Source: Sideroxydans sp. (GTDB taxonomy: Bacteria > Pseudomonadota > Gammaproteobacteria > Burkholderiales > Gallionellaceae). From it: a stretch of DNA of 64,000 nt. A model generated the notes under the pieces. The model was not told the origin of the DNA. It made no database searches and saw only the letters and a program-made list of their open reading frames with translations. The position numbers and the translations under genes were made by a program. Of the stretch, positions 49,664 through 64,000 are shown piece by piece; positions within the stretch are counted from its first letter, which is position 1; each line of letters begins with the position of its first letter. Where the stretch lies: the NCBI GenBank assembly GCA_013791855.1, contig VMTA01000047.1:62001-126000 (forward strand), read 5' to 3'.

Positions 49664-50827
49664 TCAATCAGCAGCCGCTTCGGCCAGCTCTTTGGTCAGC
49701 GGGTCGAGTTCCTTGGGCACGGGCAACTCGCCCGGCTTCACCGGCTTGACCCCGCCCTGCTTCTTGTAGCGACGCAGCTGGTAGACATAGGCCAGCACTT
49801 CCGCGACGGCCGTGTAAAGCGCTTCTGGAATAGGCGCACCTAACTCGCTGTGTTTATGCAAAGCACGCGCCAGCGGTGGTGCTTCGAGGATAGGCACGTT
49901 GTGTTCCTTGGCGATCTCTTTGATCTTGGCCGCCAACAGGTGTGAACCCTTGGCTACCACGATAGGCGCGCGCATCTTGTCCTCGCTGTATTTGAGTGCG
50001 ACCGAATAGTGGGTCGGGTTGGTCACCACCACGTCGGCGGTCGGGATCTCGGACATCATGCGGCGGCGTGCAATCTCGCGCTGCATGCTGCGGATGCGTC
50101 CCTTGACCTGCGGATTCCCCTCGGTCTCCTTACCTTCCTGGCGGACCTCTTCCTTGGTCATCTTCAGCTTCTTGGTGTGTTCGTAAAGCTGGAACGGTAC
50201 ATCGATGACCACGATCAACACCATGCCCGCCATGATGGCGGCATAGCTCCACCAGATCATGTTGTTAAGATGCGGGATGGCGCGCACGACCGGTTCGCTC
50301 ACCAGTTGCATCACTTCGTCGCGATTAGCCCACACCACCCAGGCACCGATGCCGCCGACCAGGATCGCCTTGCCCAGCGCCTTGACCAGCTCGATCAGGC
50401 TATGCGCGGAGAACATGCGCTTGATACCGCTGAAAGGATTGAGTTTGCCGAATTTCGGCTGTAAAGCCTTGGGCGAAAACAGCCAGCCACTCATCAGCAG
50501 CGGCGAGAGTAGCGCCACCAGCACCAGCATCACGAGGAATGGCACGAAGGTGAGCAGGATGTCCATGAACAGATCATGCAGCCTTGGTACCATCAGCTCG
50601 ATGTTGAAAGCGAGCGCCCGATCCAGTGTCAGCCCGTTATGCAGAAGCCGCAGCATCCCCTGGCCCAGCACCTCACCCATCATCCACAGCCCAGCACCAC
50701 CGGCCACAAGGCCCATGAAAGTGGACAGCTCGCGCGAGCGCGCAACCTGTCCGTCCTCGCGCGCCTTGTCAAGTTTGCGTTGCGAGGGTAATTCTGTCTT
50801 TTCGAGATCGCTGTCCTGACCGGCCAT
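49664..50827 (-). CDS. flhB: flagellar biosynthesis protein FlhB
   Basis: A 387-residue membrane protein that switches flagellar export from rod/hook to filament substrates. Four helices lie in about 30-210 (near AGGAGLWMMGEVL, FLVMLVLVALLSPLL, AILVGGIGAWVVW and YAAIMAGMVLIVVID). The autocleavage site Asn-Pro-Thr-His is intact in VVTNPTHYSVAL near 267-270. I start at MAGQDSDLEKTE (50827), which has AAGGA eight bases upstream; an ATG nine bases earlier would have no spacing. It is divergent from the PAS gene. Confidence 0.94.
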   Translation of the reverse strand: MAGQDSDLEKTELPSQRKLDKAREDGQVARSRELSTFMGLVAGGAGLWMMGEVLGQGMLRLLHNGLTLDRALAFNIELMVPRLHDLFMDILLTFVPFLVMLVLVALLSPLLMSGWLFSPKALQPKFGKLNPFSGIKRMFSAHSLIELVKALGKAILVGGIGAWVVWANRDEVMQLVSEPVVRAIPHLNNMIWWSYAAIMAGMVLIVVIDVPFQLYEHTKKLKMTKEEVRQEGKETEGNPQVKGRIRSMQREIARRRMMSEIPTADVVVTNPTHYSVALKYSEDKMRAPIVVAKGSHLLAAKIKEIAKEHNVPILEAPPLARALHKHSELGAPIPEALYTAVAEVLAYVYQLRRYKKQGGVKPVKPGELPVPKELDPLTKELAEAAAD

Positions 50828-50968
50828 GTCGTCCATCCTTTATCGGTGCGGCGATCATAGGACGGGTTCACGCGTGACAAGGGTTCGAAATGAAGGGGTT
50901 TTTCAGCCCTATTGCATAGATTCCAATGCACCGGACCGTCATAAGATGGCATCATTGCGGCAGGCACC

Positions 50969-50995
50969 TCAAGCAACTACAGAGGTGGCCGATAA
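50969..50995 (+). promoter_or_regulatory. sigma-28 (FliA) promoter of the PAS-chemoreceptor pair
   Basis: TCAAGCAA (50969-50976), 11 bases, then a perfect GCCGATAA (50988-50995) match the FliA consensus TAAAGTTT-N11-GCCGATAA. It lies 31 bases before the ATG at 51027, right for an ordinary 5' leader with a GGGGGAAG ribosome binding site. Confidence 0.82.
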
Positions 50996-51026
50996 GAATC
51001 ATCAGACATATGCATCAGGGGGAAGT

Positions 51027-51545
51027 ATGAAAAGGAATATCACGCCGACCACGGTCGAGAAAGTGATGCGGGACGACGACTTCATCGTCTCCATGACCGA
51101 CACCAAAGGGCGCATCACCTACGGCAACCGCATCTTCATCGAATTCTCCGGCTATAGCGAAGAAGAACTGCTGGGTACCCAGCACAACATCATCCGCCAT
51201 CCTGATATGCCGCGCGCTGTGTTCCAGTTGCTGTGGGACAAGATCCAGAAGAAGGAAGAGTGCTTCGCCTATGTGAAGAACATGTCCAAGGACGGCGCTT
51301 TCTACTGGGTGTTCACCAACGTGACGCCGACCTTCGATTCTTCCGGCAACATCAACGGCTACTTCTCGGTGCGCCGCAAACCCAAGCGCAGCGGCATCGA
51401 CGCGGTTACTCCGCTGTATGCGGCCATGCTGGAAGCGGAGCGCAAGGCCGGCCCTGCCAATGCCATCGCGGCATCCACCAAGATCCTGGTGGATATCCTG
51501 AACGAAAAAGGAATGAGCTATGACGAACTGGTCCTTGCAATCTAG
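51027..51545 (+). CDS. PAS-domain protein (Aer-like sensor half)
   Basis: A 172-residue soluble protein with one PAS fold over about residues 15-125. [39 protein letters not shown] and [17 protein letters not shown] align with the FAD-binding PAS domain of Aer. It lacks a membrane anchor and signalling domain; the next gene, overlapping by 26 bases, supplies them. It probably senses redox or energy state through FAD and acts on that receptor. Expression from a sigma-28 promoter fits. Confidence 0.88.
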
Positions 51546-52989
51546 GTTCTCCGCCCTGCTATGGGCGTTCTCCTTCGGTACACTGGTCATCATCCTGACC
51601 AGCTTCGCGCGTCACGGTTTCGATGCGTTCATGATCACCTTTCTGGTCGTCGGCATCGCCGTCTCGGCGGCAGGACAAATGCTGACCCGTCGCTGGCTGT
51701 CGCCACTGAAGAAGGTCGAAGAGGTGGTGCATGCCGTCGCGGCGGGCAAGTTCAATTCCCGCGTGACGGGCATCGGCCACTCCAGCGACGAGATCAGCAT
51801 GCTGTGCTGGGACGTCAACGACATGCTGGACCAGCTGGCCACTTTCTTCCGCGAACAGGAGACCAGCTTCCGCGCCAATCTGGCAGGCAACTTCGAACGC
51901 CAGGCGATGAGCGGCGGCGTGCATGGCGGCTTCAAGAAAGGGCTGACCAACCAGAACATCCTGCTGGAGGGCATGGCCGAACAGAAACGCAGCGCCATGC
52001 GCACCCATATGCTGTCGCGCGCCCACCATCTGAACACCGAGAATCTGCTGAAGAACCTGGTCTCTAACCAGAGCGACCTGAAGACCATCACCGACAACAT
52101 GGAAGATTTGGCCCGTCTCTCGCGCCGTACGCGGGCGGATGCCGAGGAAAGCCGCGCATCGGTGAAGGATGTGGTGCAGCGCCTGTCGGGCATCGTGGCA
52201 CGGGTGAACCATGCCAATGAGGCGATCACCAACCTCAATGCGCGCAGCAGCGAGATCACCAAGGCGGTCGGCCTGATCACTTCCATTGCCGACCAGACCA
52301 ACCTGCTCGCACTCAATGCCGCCATCGAGGCGGCCCGTGCGGGCGAAGCCGGACGCGGCTTTGCCGTGGTGGCGGACGAGGTGCGCAAGCTGGCCGAGAA
52401 CACCAAGAACGCTTCGGAATCCATAGGCCGCATCATGCTGATGCTGCAGAGCGAATCGGCCAAGATGCTGACCGACTCGCAGGAGATGCACGAGATCGCC
52501 AATTCCTCGCAAAGTGTCATCGGCAAGCTGGAACACAAGTTCGGCCAGTTCTACGAATCGGCGGTGACCTCGCTGTCCAGCGCCCGTTACGCGCAAGATC
52601 TGAGTTTCGCGTCGCTGGTGAAGGTCGACCACGTCATCTACAAGCAGCGCGCCTATGTACTGGTCAACGACTGGGACAACGAGGAATACAAGACAGCGGT
52701 CGGTGTCGACCATCACAATTGCCGCTTGGGCAAGTGGTATGAAGGTGCCGGTAAAGAGGTGTTCGGCGAGATGCCATCATTCCGCAAACTGGATGTGCCG
52801 CACAGCAAGGTGCACGGATCCGTGCAACGCATGCTGTCGCTGATGGAACTGAACTGGGCGCACGACGAATCCCTGCAGGACCAGATCCTGGAGCAACTGA
52901 AGGTGGCGGAAGATGCCAGCCTGGAGGTTATGTCAGTCATCGACCAGATGGTCGCCGACAAACATCCTCAAGTAGCGAAGCGAAGCTGA
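51520..52989 (+). CDS. chemoreceptor with HAMP, signalling and C-terminal CZB domain
   Basis: A 489-residue methyl-accepting chemotaxis protein. Two close hydrophobic helices (about 10-28 and 33-52) leave almost no periplasmic part, as in Aer. A HAMP domain follows ([20 protein letters not shown]), then the signalling hairpin tip [20 protein letters not shown] and [17 protein letters not shown]. The last 120 residues form a CZB zinc-binding domain: His in VKVDHVIYK, Cys in [10 protein letters not shown] and His in VPHSKVH. It overlaps the PAS gene, so the pair resembles an Aer receptor split into two proteins. Confidence 0.9.
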
Positions 52990-53029: not shown

Positions 53030-53608
53030 TCAGTATTCCCGGCTGCGCATGATCGCCCGCTCGGCGATCCTTTCCAGCGTTAACACCTCATCCACCGCGC
53101 CCAGCTCGATCGCGGCACGCGGCATTCCGAACACCACGCAACTCTCTTCATCCTGGGCCAGATTGATGGCACCGGCCTGTTTCATCTCCAGCATGGCGAC
53201 CGCCCCGTCCTTGCCCATACCGGTCAGCATCACACCGACGGCGCGCGCGCCCAATACCCTGGCAGCGGAGCGGAACAGCATCTCTACCGAAGGACGATGG
53301 AAGTTCACAGGGGGCGCATCGTTCAGCTGGATGCGATAGCCGGTGCCATGTCTGGCGATCTGCAGATGTGCATTGCCCGGGGAGAGATATACCGTACCTC
53401 CACGGATATCCTCGCCCTGCTCAGCCAGTTTGACTTTCAACTTGCACAGTCCATCCAAACGCTCGGCGAAAGAAGGCACGAACGACTCCGGCATGTGCTG
53501 CGCGATCAGGATAGCCGGTGCATCGACAGGCATCTGCGAGAGAAATATGCGCAAAGCATCCGTCCCGCCGGTGGAAGAGCCCACGACGATGATGCGCCCC
53601 TCATGCAT
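53030..53608 (-). CDS. cheB: CheB-type methylesterase without receiver domain
   Basis: A 192-residue protein holding only the catalytic CheB domain. Ser12 in VGSSTGGTDAL, His38 in AQHMPESFVPS and Asp in LTGMGKDGAVAM form the expected triad. Ordinary CheB has an N-terminal receiver of about 120 residues that restrains the enzyme until phosphorylated; here the ATG at 53608 overlaps the cheR stop, leaving no room for one. It would demethylate receptors, but its control by CheA must differ. The upstream in-frame extension to 53689 has no receiver similarity and lies inside cheR. Confidence 0.9.
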   Translation of the reverse strand: MHEGRIIVVGSSTGGTDALRIFLSQMPVDAPAILIAQHMPESFVPSFAERLDGLCKLKVKLAEQGEDIRGGTVYLSPGNAHLQIARHGTGYRIQLNDAPPVNFHRPSVEMLFRSAARVLGARAVGVMLTGMGKDGAVAMLEMKQAGAINLAQDEESCVVFGMPRAAIELGAVDEVLTLERIAERAIMRSREY

Positions 53609-54416
53609 GCTTGGCCAACTCGTAGACGGTCTGGCCGCGCAATCTGAAATAGGCGGCGGCATGATAGAAACTCTCCGAATGCCCCGCAAATAGCAAACCG
53701 TGCGGGTGCAGCAAGGGCGCGAACTTCTTCAAAATGCCGAGCTGGGTATCCTTGTCGAAGTAGATCATCACATTGCGGCAGAAGATGCCATCCAGCTTTT
53801 CACGGACCGGATAGTTCGCATCGAGCAGATTGATGCGCTTGAACTCGATGCACTGCTGCAACTCCGGGCGCACTTTGAAATACCCGTCCCCGTCAGGAAG
53901 AAAGTAGCGGGCCACACGTTCCGCTCCAAGTTTGAGTACGGCATCCGCCTTGTAAAGGCCAGCTTTTGCCGTGACCAGCACATGACTATCCAGATCCGAA
54001 GCGATGATACGTACCGGATGATCGAAACCGCCGAACGTCTCCGCGGCGGTGATCGCCATCGAATACGCCTCTTCGCCTGTGGAACAGGCCGAACACCACA
54101 GATATATCGGGCGGGACGGACCGAGTTGCCGCAGAAAATCCGCTAGCAGGTTGAAGTGATGTGCCTCGCGGAAGAACGAGGTGAGATTGGTGGTCAGGGA
54201 ATTGACGAAGGCTTCCCATTCATCCTCGTGACCTTTCTGCAGGAAAGACAGATATTCCGAGAAGGTCTTGATCCCGGTCACGCGGAGCCTTCTCGCCAAG
54301 CGGCTGTAGACCAGTTCCTGCTTGCTGTCCGCCAGCGCGATGCCGGCATGGCGATGGATCAGGTCACGTATCTTCTGAAAATCCTGGTCGGTAAAAACAA
54401 ATTCACGATTCATCAT
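53601..54416 (-). CDS. cheR: chemotaxis protein methyltransferase CheR
   Basis: A 271-residue SAM-dependent methyltransferase that methylates glutamates on chemoreceptors. The N-terminal helical domain begins FVFTDQDFQKIRDLIHRHAG. The SAM site is LWCSACSTGEEAYSMAI, and ASDLDSHVL plus IFCRNVMIYFDK fit the Rossmann domain. Start is at 54416 or the adjacent ATG at 54413; the ribosome binding site is weak. It overlaps the receiver-less cheB. Confidence 0.93.
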   Translation of the reverse strand: MMNREFVFTDQDFQKIRDLIHRHAGIALADSKQELVYSRLARRLRVTGIKTFSEYLSFLQKGHEDEWEAFVNSLTTNLTSFFREAHHFNLLADFLRQLGPSRPIYLWCSACSTGEEAYSMAITAAETFGGFDHPVRIIASDLDSHVLVTAKAGLYKADAVLKLGAERVARYFLPDGDGYFKVRPELQQCIEFKRINLLDANYPVREKLDGIFCRNVMIYFDKDTQLGILKKFAPLLHPHGLLFAGHSESFYHAAAYFRLRGQTVYELAKHA

Positions 54417-54476
54417 GCTGGGACAAAACCCGGTTCCGGCTGTCATGTATCGAACAACCGGAACTCAGTACCGGTG

Positions 54477-59250: not shown

Positions 59251-59973
59251 TTAAAATCCCAGACTCTCCAGCAGATCGTCGACCTGATCCTGGCTGGTGA
59301 CCACATCGTTCCTGCCTGCTGCGCTGATCACCGGGCCATTCAACAGACCCGAGTTTTCAGCACGTACCGCTGGCGGCGCGTTCTCAAGCAACAGTTCGAC
59401 CAGTTGTTTTTCCATCTCTTGCGTCAACTGGATGATCTTCTTGATGACCTGCCCAGTCAGATCCTGGAAATCCTGGGCCATCATGATCTCCAGCAGATAG
59501 GCATTAACTTCCTTGCCCTGCTTGGGCATATCGTGCAGATGGGCGTGTGTCTGCGTTACCAGCGCCTTGAACTGCTGCACATCCAGTTTCTTCTGGAACA
59601 GCAGATCCCATTGCGCAGCCAAGCGCTGCGAATCGTCGGAAAGTTTGTCGACCAGCGGCTGCGCCGATTCTGTGGCGGTCAACACGCGTTCGGCAGCCTG
59701 CTGCGTCAGAGTCGCCACATAGTTGAGACGGTCGCGCGCATCGGGGATGGAGGACGTCGCCTTCTCGATCTCCTTGTGCAGGCCAAGTTCACGCAGCGTG
59801 TCGTGCAGCTTGCGTGCCATATGACCGACCTGATTGAGGACCTTTGCGGGCTCCGCATCGGCGTTCAACTGGATCACCTTGGCAGCAGCCTTGGGTTCAT
59901 CGGTGTTGGCAGAGATGATGCTATCGAACAGTGCTTCGAGATCGTCCGAGTCGTTATTTGCAGGATTAGCCAT
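59251..59973 (-). CDS. cheZ: CheY-P phosphatase CheZ
   Basis: A 240-residue helical protein. The catalytic helix has AQDFQDLTGQVIKKI (Asp and Gln as in E. coli Asp143 and Gln147). The C-terminal tail that binds CheY is SQDQVDDLLESLGF, matching the E. coli end. CheZ together with cheY and cheA in one operon is typical of gamma- and betaproteobacteria. It precedes cheA with a 53-base gap. Confidence 0.93.
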   Translation of the reverse strand: MANPANNDSDDLEALFDSIISANTDEPKAAAKVIQLNADAEPAKVLNQVGHMARKLHDTLRELGLHKEIEKATSSIPDARDRLNYVATLTQQAAERVLTATESAQPLVDKLSDDSQRLAAQWDLLFQKKLDVQQFKALVTQTHAHLHDMPKQGKEVNAYLLEIMMAQDFQDLTGQVIKKIIQLTQEMEKQLVELLLENAPPAVRAENSGLLNGPVISAAGRNDVVTSQDQVDDLLESLGF

Positions 59974-60414: not shown

Positions 60415-61365
60415 TTATGTCAGCAACGGTCTCAGAGTCGACGACAACACCATCGAATCGAACTTGGGCACGTAATAATCGACACCCACCCGCTTGCCCA
60501 TCGCCCGGTTGGCGTCGGATGACAGCGAGGAATGCATCACCACCGGGATACCTTCGAAGCGCCTGTCGTTCTTCACGTACTGGGTCAACACATAGCCGTC
60601 CATAGCCGGCATCTCGGCATCGGTCAGGATCACCTGTATCTGGTCGTGCAGGTTCTGCCCGCTGCTCTGGGCGGCATCCGCCATCGCGCGCAAACGATCC
60701 CACGCTTCCTGCCCGTTGTTGGACTGGATGTGCTTGACGCCCATACGGTCCAGCACCTCGACGATCTTGCGCCGCGCCACCATGGAGTCGTCCGCAAAGA
60801 ACACGCACAGATCATGGGCGGATTCGATACGCTCTACGTTGCCGACGATTGCTTCACCAAAGGCATTGGAGAGTATCTGCTCCACATCCAGGATGGACAC
60901 CAGCGAGCCGTCATCCAGATTGGTGATGGCGGTGATCAGCGCATCCTTGTCGGACAGCATGCCCTCGGTCGGACGCACCTTGTCCCAATCGACACGGATG
61001 ATGCGATCCACATCCTTCACCAGGAATCCCAGGATATGGTTGTTGTATTCGGCCACCATCATGGTCTGGTGCGGCTCTTCTTCGCGTATCCCCATGAACT
61101 TCGCCAGATTCAGCACAGGCATCACGTGGCCGCGCAGGCTGACGATACCGTCCACGCCTTGCGGCATATTGGGCGTGCGTGTGATCTTGCCGGCCTGGGA
61201 CACCTCTTTCACCTTGAACACGTTGATACCGAACTTCTCATCCGTGCCCAGATTGAACAGCAGGATCTCCATCTTGTTGGTGCCCGCTAGATTCGTGCGC
61301 GCATCGATATGATCGAGCAGACCGTCATATTCACTGCTTGCCAGCATGTCTTCGTTGTATGCCAT
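60415..61365 (-). CDS. cheV: CheV coupling protein (CheW + receiver), copy 1
   Basis: A 316-residue protein with a CheW-like half (about 25-165: [20 protein letters not shown] and [19 protein letters not shown]) and a C-terminal receiver (about 188-310: [15 protein letters not shown], phospho-acceptor in [12 protein letters not shown], Lys in VPKFD). CheV links receptors to CheA and can adapt through phosphorylation. A second CheV lies 12 bases upstream. No CheW gene is in the window. Confidence 0.93.
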
Positions 61366-61377
61366 CTCGTGCTCCCC

Positions 61378-62322
61378 TTATCCCAGCAGACGCGCGAGCG
61401 TCTGCGACAATTTCTGCGGCTCGAACTTGGGCACATATTCATCCACGCCGACCGCCTTGCCCAACTGCTGGTTGGAATTACTGGACAGCGATGAATGCAT
61501 CAGCACCGGGATACCGTTGAAACGTTTGTCCGACTTGATCTTGCGCGTCAGCATATAACCGTCCATCTCCGGCATCTCCACATCGGTCAGGATCACCTGC
61601 ACCATATCTTTCAGAGGCGTGTTGGATGATTCCGCATAGTCCGCCATGCGCGCCAGCTCTTCCCAAGCTTTGCGTCCGTTGATGGCGGAGATGGATTTAA
61701 CCCCCATCGCCTCCAAAGTGCGGGCGATCTGGTTGCGGGCCACGGACGAATCGTCAGCGTAGAAAACAGTACGATCCGCCTTGCTGATCGGCTGGACTGC
61801 CTTGAATATCATCTCGTCCGAACCGAAATGTCCGGTCTCTGCCAGCACCTTTTCCACGTCCAGCATCATCACCAGTCGCTTGTCCTTCAATTCCGTGATG
61901 GCGGTCACCAGCCCACCCATCTCCGCCGCCAGCATCTCGGGGGGAACACGCATCGCCGACCAGTCCAGACGCAGGATGTTATCCACCGACTTCACCAGGA
62001 AACCCTGGGTATGTCCGTTGTACTCGGTCACGATCATGATGTCGGGCTTGCTGTCGGACTCCATACCGATGTACTTTGCCAGATCGATCACCGGCACCAA
62101 GGCTCCGCGCAAACTCACCATACCTTCCACCGCCGCCGGCATCTCGGGCGCGCGCGTGATCTCGGGTATGCGCATCACTTCACGCACCTTGAATACGTTG
62201 ATGCCGAAGGTCTCCTCGCGAGCGGTGCGCAGGTCCTTGCCCAGCGAGAACATCAGGATCTCCAGCTTGTTGGTGCCCGCCAGCTTGGTACGCGCATCGA
62301 TATTCTTTAACAGTTCAGACAT
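61378..62322 (-). CDS. cheV: CheV coupling protein (CheW + receiver), copy 2
   Basis: A 314-residue paralogue of the neighbouring CheV. The CheW-like half has LEILMFSLGKDLRTAREETFG, including a short insert (DLRTAREE) absent from copy 1, and AAVEGMVSLRGALVPVI. The receiver has YADDSSVARNQIARTL, LTDVEMPEMDGYM and YVPKFEP. I start at MSELLKNIDAR (62322), with AAGGAGAG upstream. The two copies differ enough to be an older duplication. Confidence 0.93.
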   Translation of the reverse strand: MSELLKNIDARTKLAGTNKLEILMFSLGKDLRTAREETFGINVFKVREVMRIPEITRAPEMPAAVEGMVSLRGALVPVIDLAKYIGMESDSKPDIMIVTEYNGHTQGFLVKSVDNILRLDWSAMRVPPEMLAAEMGGLVTAITELKDKRLVMMLDVEKVLAETGHFGSDEMIFKAVQPISKADRTVFYADDSSVARNQIARTLEAMGVKSISAINGRKAWEELARMADYAESSNTPLKDMVQVILTDVEMPEMDGYMLTRKIKSDKRFNGIPVLMHSSLSSNSNQQLGKAVGVDEYVPKFEPQKLSQTLARLLG

Positions 62323-62336
62323 TGCTCTCTCCTTGC

Positions 62337-64000
62337 TCAGCCTTGGTTCCGCATGCCGCACTTGGTCAGCGGATAACCTGCCTTGCTCAATTCATCGGCC
62401 GATTTCGCCAGTTCTACAGCCGCATCACGCGTCTGCTGCGAAGAGCGGGCATTCTCGTCCACCAAACCGGAGATATGCTCCAGGCTCTTGGCCACATTCT
62501 CGCCGGCCACCGATTGCTCCTTGGACGCCATGGTGATGTGGTCGATGCGCTGCGACATGCTGACCGTGGCCTCCATCACTTCTTGCAGCCGCTCACCGTT
62601 ACTCCGGATCAGCGTGATGCCGCTTTCGACCTCGACCACCGCCTCACCCATAGACTTCACTGCCTCCTCGGAGATTGCCGTGATGTCGGCGATGGTCTTG
62701 GTGATGTCCTTGGTACTGGAAGCCGTGCGCTCCGCCAGCTTGCGTACTTCGTCCGCCACCACCGCGAAACCGCGCCCCTGCTCGCCGGCACGCGCTGCCT
62801 CGATGGCTGCATTCAAGGCCAACAGGTTGGTCTGGTCGGCAATCTCCTTAATCGAATTGGCTATTTTACCGATTCTTTCTATGGAAGCCCCCAGATCCGA
62901 GATGGTCTTGCTGGAGCGCTGCACAGTCTCTGCCACCTTGGTGGTCGCGTCGATACTGAGCCCCATATTGGCATTGTTCTGTTCCACGATACCTTGGGTG
63001 CGCTTCATCTCGGTCAGCGAATCGGACGCCATGTTCGCCACCTCGGCAATGGACTGACTGAACTGTTCCATGGTCGCCGCGATACTCTGTATCTGAGCCT
63101 GCTCGGTCACGGCGTTACTGGCCACCACGCCCACCTTCTCATCCACCGATTTGACTTTGTCCCGCATCTTTACCACCGGCGTGACGATCTCGTCCACCAT
63201 GGTGCGCAGATAGGTCTGCATGGTCTGGATCGCACATAGCAGCTTGCCCATCTCGTCCTGGATAGTGATGTCCAGTTCGGTGTCCAGATTGCCTTCCATG
63301 ATATTGCGGAACTCTTTCTCGACCTGCGACAGCGGGCGATGGATGAAGCGATCCACACAGTAGCCGATGAAGAAGAACAGGAACAGTTGCAGCACGATCT
63401 GCCCGGCCAGCACCTTCATCTCCATCAGATGGATGCGGTCGAAATCGTCCTTGAGATCGATAGAGATGTCTGATGCTCCTGTCACCCAATTATCCGGCCC
63501 GGCGTGACACAAGGTGCAGTCGGTACCATGGAAGTCCTTGCTGGCCAGATATGGTGTGACGACACGCAGAACCGGCGAACCGGCACTGTCTTCCCCATAA
63601 CTCACTTTGGCTTTACCGGATTTCAGCACCTCGCGCTGGACGTCATCTCTGGCCTTCTGCTCCGGCGTGCCCGCGCCGTACTGGTCGATCAGATGATCCG
63701 AACGCAGTATGACTGCCGACTGCACATGACCCGATGATGTGACTTTCTCGATCAGCAGTTTGCGGTTCTCTTCGATACCGATCTGCCCGGTCACCATCAG
63801 CATATTGGCGTTATCGATGATCTGGGTGGCGATCTGAGCCCCCTTGGATTCCGCCTGCAGCTTCGCCTCTTCCTGCATGCTCCCAGTCAGGTATATCTGC
63901 GCCACGGTCAGGATGAGCAGCAGCGGGATCTGGATCGCAGCTTGCAGTTTGGTCTTCAATGACCAGTTCTTGACCTTGAGCCGCTCGTAGCGGGAAACGA
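62337..64000 (-). CDS. haem-c-type chemoreceptor, N-terminus cut by window edge
   Basis: At least 553 residues are visible and the frame is open to base 64000, with no ATG before the edge; [20 protein letters not shown] looks like the first helix of a receptor. A TTG at 63959 is possible but less likely. Between helices 1 and 2 (about residues 30-180 from that TTG) is a periplasmic domain with [10 protein letters not shown], a CxxCH haem-binding motif at 63504-63518. HAMP ([20 protein letters not shown]) and the signalling tip [20 protein letters not shown] follow. It probably senses redox state or a gas. Confidence 0.9.

Follow-up and report, generated by a model that had tools for sequence, protein, structure and literature searches.

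The cheB gene in the 64,000-nucleotide window (the whole stretch of DNA analysed here, from a Sideroxydans genome) encodes a chemotaxis methylesterase that consists of its catalytic domain only, and comparison across the Gallionellaceae indicates that this receiver-less state arose at least four times in the one family, with intermediates. We lean towards the explanation that the window protein is a constitutive methylesterase whose receiver decayed after a second kinase, CheA2, had been lost, with adaptation proceeding through activity-dependent demethylation and perhaps through CheV feedback.

The chemotaxis genes of the window lie on the minus strand in the order mcp-cheV-cheV-cheY-cheZ-cheA-mcp-mcp-cheR-cheB, followed by flhB and flhA, the last two named by reading of the sequence:

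53030..53608, minus strand: cheB, methylesterase domain only (192 aa); sole Pfam match PF01339; triad S12, H38, D134
53601..54446, minus strand: cheR, methyltransferase, with an 8-nt overlap with cheB; PF01739, PF03705
54477..55604, minus strand: MCP with a CZB domain, in which no membrane or ligand domain was found; PF00015, PF13682
55647..57311, minus strand: MCP; PF00015
57344..59203, minus strand: cheA (here CheA1), lacking P2 and a receiver domain; Hpt, H-kinase_dim, HATPase_c and CheW; linker disordered in the model
59251..59973, minus strand: cheZ; PF04344
59982..60380, minus strand: cheY; PF00072 alone
60415..61365, minus strand: cheV (a), CheW domain plus receiver; PF01584, PF00072; receiver residues intact
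61378..62361, minus strand: cheV (b), CheW domain plus receiver; PF01584, PF00072; receiver residues intact
62337..63959, minus strand: MCP whose start is perhaps beyond the window; PF00015, HAMP

A PAS protein and an MCP lie on the opposite strand between cheB and flhB (50826-52989, plus strand); the PAS-only ORF (50826-51545) overlaps the HAMP-MCP-CZB ORF (51520-52989) by 26 nt, a pair that resembles a two-gene version of an energy-taxis receptor, and an ortholog of the 51520-52989 MCP stands at the same place in several close relatives. The receptor-tethering pentapeptide has the motif W-x-x-F/Y, which was found at the C-terminus of none of the genome's 10 MCPSIGNAL proteins; the pentapeptides NWETF and GWEEF agree with this motif (PMC7698151).

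The cheB reading frame runs from an ATG at 53608 to a stop codon ending at 53030. Its CheB_methylest match (PF01339) scores 212.8 bits against a cut-off of 24 and spans residues 7-184 and profile positions 1-173 of 174, and no Response_reg match was found in the 192-residue protein, which bears out the original prediction that only the methylesterase domain is encoded. The prediction that the overlap with cheR leaves no space for a receiver also stands: the two genes share 8 nt (ATGCATGA; cheR ends at 53601), and the longest in-frame extension of cheB, from a TTG at 53689, lies inside cheR and has no receiver match.

The closest solved chains are those of Salmonella CheB (1a2o, full length; 1chd, catalytic domain) and Pectobacterium atrosepticum CheB (6ymz), with an unbroken alignment over window residues 5-186 at 226 bits for 6ymz, 217.5 for 1chd and 215.9 for 1a2o. 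The natural Salmonella and Pectobacterium proteins carry an N-terminal receiver, whereas the window CheB is naturally without one; 1chd we take to be a laboratory truncation. Alignment to these structures places the catalytic triad of the window protein at S12, H38 and D134, the counterpart of S165-H191-D287 in 6ymz (PMC7698151), and all 111 CheBs of the family survey described below have the same Ser, His and Asp there. The five closest named relatives are 79-91 % identical, four of them from Sideroxydans MAGs (the genome's own record may be absent from the collection), and the gene's dN/dS in comparisons with its five nearest relatives is 0.09-0.14. With domain and triad intact, the gene probably encodes a receptor methylesterase of putatively constitutive activity. 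It scores below the cut-offs of both NCBIfam CheB models (250.7 versus 293 bits and 242.7 versus 342 bits) because the receiver-holding half of the model is unmatched; as a practical point, receiver-less CheBs of this kind fall under both cut-offs.

The genome, from the Sideroxydans group of the Gallionellaceae, comprises 2,553,042 bases in 47 contigs and is 99.74 % complete and 0.4 % contaminated. PF01339 matches it once, so the window gene is its sole CheB, and the further full-length CheB that would have made this a secondary enzyme is absent. We rejected a frameshift or mis-assembly as the origin of the short gene because it belongs to a clade of 32 receiver-less members, itself included, of which four sit in single-contig genomes (G044, G050, G057 and G066). 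Long open frames of 338-828 aa around some receiver-less CheBs were also rejected as full-length genes: they cross cheR in a different frame and have no receiver match. That the window cheB is a decaying or secondary copy, or an artefact of the gene model, is very improbable: CheB can be lost, as 15 of 150 family genomes (several of them incomplete) have no CheB match, but this one is the sole CheB of a near-complete genome, its triad is invariant, its dN/dS is about 0.1 and gene order is mostly the same throughout its 32-member clade.

A receiver might instead have become detached, with CheY or another stand-alone receiver binding and controlling the catalytic domain. The genome does hold 31 receiver domains, and the five in open frames shorter than 215 aa were examined: CheY, a pair from a pil-type cluster, a receiver whose C-terminal extension of about 80 residues looks similar to a DNA-binding domain, and an isolated single-domain receiver on contig 42. 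None of these five (of 31) is a CheB-type stand-alone receiver, and the contig-42 protein scores weakly (5.1e-13) and lies outside any che cluster. Nor was a CheB-type receiver found between cheR and cheB in the receiver-less loci examined; what tblastn with the CheB receiver matched in L065, L087 and L089 lies beyond flhB and not near cheB. We therefore consider detachment quite unlikely. Because the protein consists of the methylesterase domain alone, a receiver would not fit, the genome has no second CheB and none of the five receivers examined is of the CheB type, phosphorylation of the window CheB itself is, on sequence grounds, excluded. Constant activity would follow naturally.

To place this gene in context, we surveyed CheB across 150 genomes of the family, examining the listed matches that scored 196 bits or more, 111 out of 112, with their surroundings (all but G045:C303, weaker paralogs being outside the scope). 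Of the 111 CheBs, 73 have the receiver (8 of these supplied the profile used to detect it) and 38 lack it, that is, 37 plus one set aside (L096). Presence followed the surrounding genes closely. Clusters with cheV, cheZ and cheA1 held 32 CheBs without and 5 with a receiver, and clusters with cheA2 and cheW2 held 0 without and 36 with; where cheD was adjacent and genes further upstream were out of view or different, the figures were 0 and 30, and where neither cluster type nor cheD was in view they were 6 (L096 included) and 2. All 32 receiver-less genes with resolved surroundings thus lie in cheV-cheV-cheY-cheZ-cheA1-cheR-cheB clusters, while outside the cheA1 clusters, beside cheD, 66 of 66 CheBs have a receiver with its phosphorylation residues (Asp-Asp, Asp, Ser, Lys) intact. 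Receiver-bearing loci mostly have 1.1-1.4 kb between the cheR stop and the catalytic domain, which accommodates cheD and the receiver; where cheR can be seen in receiver-less loci, the spacing is -8 to 213 nt. Fourteen positions conserved in receiver-bearing CheBs vary in the main receiver-less clade. L096 (G099:C281), a receiver-less CheB that groups with the receiver-bearing L106, comes from a short contig on which no cheR is in view; it may reflect either an assembly fault or a fifth loss within the family.

A quick tree made from all 111 catalytic domains and an outgroup needs four changes, three of them forced by well-supported branches. A careful tree, made from 76 of these rows with all 37 receiver-less proteins included, also needs four, all of them forced, and the count is four over the whole 5-95 % bootstrap range. 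A single origin of the receiver-less state is rejected by the AU test (log-likelihood 143 lower, p about 1e-44), and the trees thus require that the receiver was lost independently at least four times in the family. We infer that the changes are losses and not gains, because full-length CheB is widespread, including at most of the named loci compared. A further loss has probably occurred outside the family, in Amantichitinum ursilacus (L188:9896-10576, plus strand), where a receiver-less CheB that does not adjoin cheR lies between receiver-phosphatase-like and NtrC-like genes, with a cheV-cheV-cheY-cheZ-cheA cluster nearby; that genome has several other CheA and CheW proteins alongside its receiver-less CheB, which counts against an explanation by kinase loss.

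We wondered how the receiver's fate relates to the kinases of each genome. In a count by genome (104 genomes), cheA2 was scored at E <= 1e-100 (430 bits or more), a threshold that shorter fragments would escape; G035 was also counted, its match being partial (374 bits, 65 % identity). On this scoring, cheA2 was present in 0 of the 32 genomes with only receiver-less CheB of this type, in 5 of 5 with both kinds and in 57 of 67 with only full-length CheB. Five of the ten full-length-only genomes without cheA2 are those in which a receiver persists in a cheA1 cluster; the other five (G004, G019, G023, G049 and G073) have CheW2 or a CheW2 fragment at 67 % identity or more, so that cheA2 is probably missing from their assemblies. 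Among the 32 receiver-less-only genomes, no CheW2 match at E <= 1e-15 was found in 17, two of them single-contig (G057 and G066), and the other 15 had only weak matches (best 5.9e-30, with 32-40 % identity where listed), a complete CheW2 giving 1e-58 or better. Absences in general count for less in the many genomes that are incomplete MAGs. A more distant CheA match (46-50 % identity) occurs in at least 14 of these 32 genomes, and several carry a further CheB paralog (45-50 % identity); neither is found in the window's genome. Receiver loss therefore tracks the absence of the second CheA/CheW pair and of cheD; no CheD was found in the window's own genome.

The five receivers that persist in cheA1 clusters (L103, L119, L120, L124 and L155) look like stages of this process, in which cheA2-cheW2 is gone, cheD and then the phosphorylation residues are decaying, and the receiver is finally deleted. 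Phosphorylation residues are damaged in three of the five: Lys to Arg in L103, Ser to Ala and Lys to Arg in L119, and Asp to Ala in the acidic pair of L124. None of these three loci has a cheD match. L120 and L155 keep their residues intact; the cheD of L120 is found as three tblastn pieces, with a Pfam match to positions 1-55 of 108 only, and L155 has one adjacent cheD match, the best CheD match of its genome being weak (2.5e-11 in three matches). Damage in 3 of 5 receivers inside cheA1 clusters compares with 0 of 66 outside (Fisher p 0.00017, uncorrected for kinship). In kinship-corrected pairs, from which L131 was left out (its frame is broken in the receiver), an average of 4.7 of the 5 supported pairs linked loss or damage to a cheA1 location and none pointed the other way (median p 0.0625, p < 0.05 being out of reach with only five pairs); for loss alone the figure was 2.6 of 3 (p 0.25). 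Remnants of the deleted part are also evident: at the protein level, the linker survives in L098 and a stretch similar to the receiver's start in L099, both above shuffles, and protein-level remnants in L097, L100 and L101 are not above shuffles. At the DNA level, the L098 linker is collinear with both L119 and L155 and above shuffles against L119, not against L155; remnants in L097, L099 and L100 are not above shuffles.

These observations suggest a course of events. The ancestor would have had a full-length CheB in a cheY2-cheA2-cheW2-mcp-cheR-cheD-cheB cluster; loss of the CheA2-CheW2 pair would have placed cheR-cheB beside cheV-cheV-cheY-cheZ-cheA1, where the CheB receiver was either unneeded or unphosphorylated. 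Decay of cheD, then of the phosphorylation residues and finally deletion of the receiver would have followed. CheA1 of this family may not phosphorylate CheB, the one precedent being Rhodobacter sphaeroides CheA1, reported not to phosphorylate CheB1 or CheB2 in vitro (PMC2829493); it might still phosphorylate the CheBs of L120 and L155, since their residues are intact. Adaptation would now depend on CheB acting chiefly on active receptors, as in Escherichia coli with the CheB catalytic domain alone, and phosphorylation feedback, if any, would come from elsewhere, most plausibly from the two intact CheV receivers.

The case for CheV is that the flagellar chemotaxis cluster of the window is of the CheV-only kind. 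Five CheW-type domains occur in the genome: in CheA1, in the two CheVs, in a 1682-aa kinase beside an MCP end, and in a 164-aa protein, the sole stand-alone CheW-domain protein, which lies among pil-type genes (presumably a Pil-Chp system). No CheW of the flagellar cluster's own was found in the genome and two CheVs are present instead, so that these are likely to be the couplers; as the five key residues of the CheV receivers are conserved in all 37 clusters examined (apart from one Ser/Thr exchange), there is room for feedback at the coupling protein. Phosphorylated CheV might go further and replace the lost receiver, altering CheB's access to receptors or their susceptibility to it. CheV has been linked to adaptation in Bacillus subtilis (PMC4742279), and Campylobacter jejuni has CheV together with a receiver-less CheB (PMC3879368). 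However, a CheV of the window's pair occurs in 110 of the 150 family genomes, most full-length-CheB genomes included; we rejected the pair as a marker of receiver loss, with which it shows no association. Moreover, in a yeast two-hybrid assay of C. jejuni proteins CheV gave ++ with the Tlp signalling domain and CheB gave 0, CheV-CheB binding lying outside that assay (PMC3879368). We regard control of the esterase by CheV, in place of the lost receiver, as unlikely. The original prediction had offered adaptation that is constant or controlled by a protein such as CheV; the exclusion of CheB's own phosphorylation agrees with it, and CheV is a possible controller that the family does not specifically support, because the pair accompanies full-length CheB too.

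Returning to a constitutive enzyme with lost kinase CheA2, the engineered E. coli CheBc has the same domain content as the window CheB and is active without phosphorylation feedback (PMC5809149), and on this precedent the window CheB should be constitutive. CheBc differs in being engineered, in a background adapted to full-length CheB, where steady-state kinase activity without the feedback turns broad and bimodal (PMC5809149). The same source states that the supposed role of CheB feedback in precise adaptation is ruled out in E. coli and describes the role of that feedback as a long-standing open question (PMC5809149). The C. jejuni system resembles that of the window, by description, in a CheB without a CheY-like receiver and in the presence of CheV (PMC3879368), and differs in having CheW and a CheA with a fused receiver, whereas the window CheA1 has no receiver and no flagellar CheW was found. 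Within the family, full-length CheBs (for example L104 and G086) share 59 % identity in the catalytic domain and the position between cheR and flhB-flhA; they differ in the receiver and in having cheD, cheA2 and cheW2 in the cluster.

A 2014 paper called the C. jejuni receiver-less CheB unique among pathways characterised to date (PMC3879368). Among the papers listed for Gallionella or Sideroxydans che genes we found no report on the window gene, nor the term 'CheB' in an article on strains ES-1 and ES-2 (PMC3770913), and among those listed in general searches no paper on recurrent loss of the CheB receiver, subscription journals being mostly outside the scope. A receiver-less CheB is thus already known, and its recurrent loss tied to CheA2 appears to be new. 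The family offers a natural experiment on when CheB feedback is dispensable and what replaces it, and its members suggest that which kinase is present determines whether the CheB switch is retained. More tentatively, the receiver may be kept only while CheA2-CheW2 exists, CheA1-CheV arrays leaving CheB unphosphorylated, so that the feedback arm eroded (first cheD, then the residues, then the receiver) and feedback moved to a CheV pair working without CheW; if so, one family has given up and relocated a core control loop of chemotaxis at least four times, and the intermediates are extant.

The kinases themselves differ in the linker between the Hpt and dimerisation domains. A missing P2 domain in CheA1 was dropped as a cause of receiver loss; the family's own CheA2 (L104) also has no Pfam P2 match, and P2 is absent from about half of all CheAs (PMC10782961). 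The CheA1 linker is mostly disordered in its model, and the model of L189, a CheA2 relative not belonging to the family, shows a folded alpha/beta segment at this place; both models are of middling confidence (mean pLDDT 73.4 and 71.8). In all 23 CheA2 proteins compared (L104:1932-3962 and 22 relatives), the linker carries 1-6 YGFF-type repeats, which occur in 0 of 38 CheA1 proteins and are possible docking motifs for response regulators.
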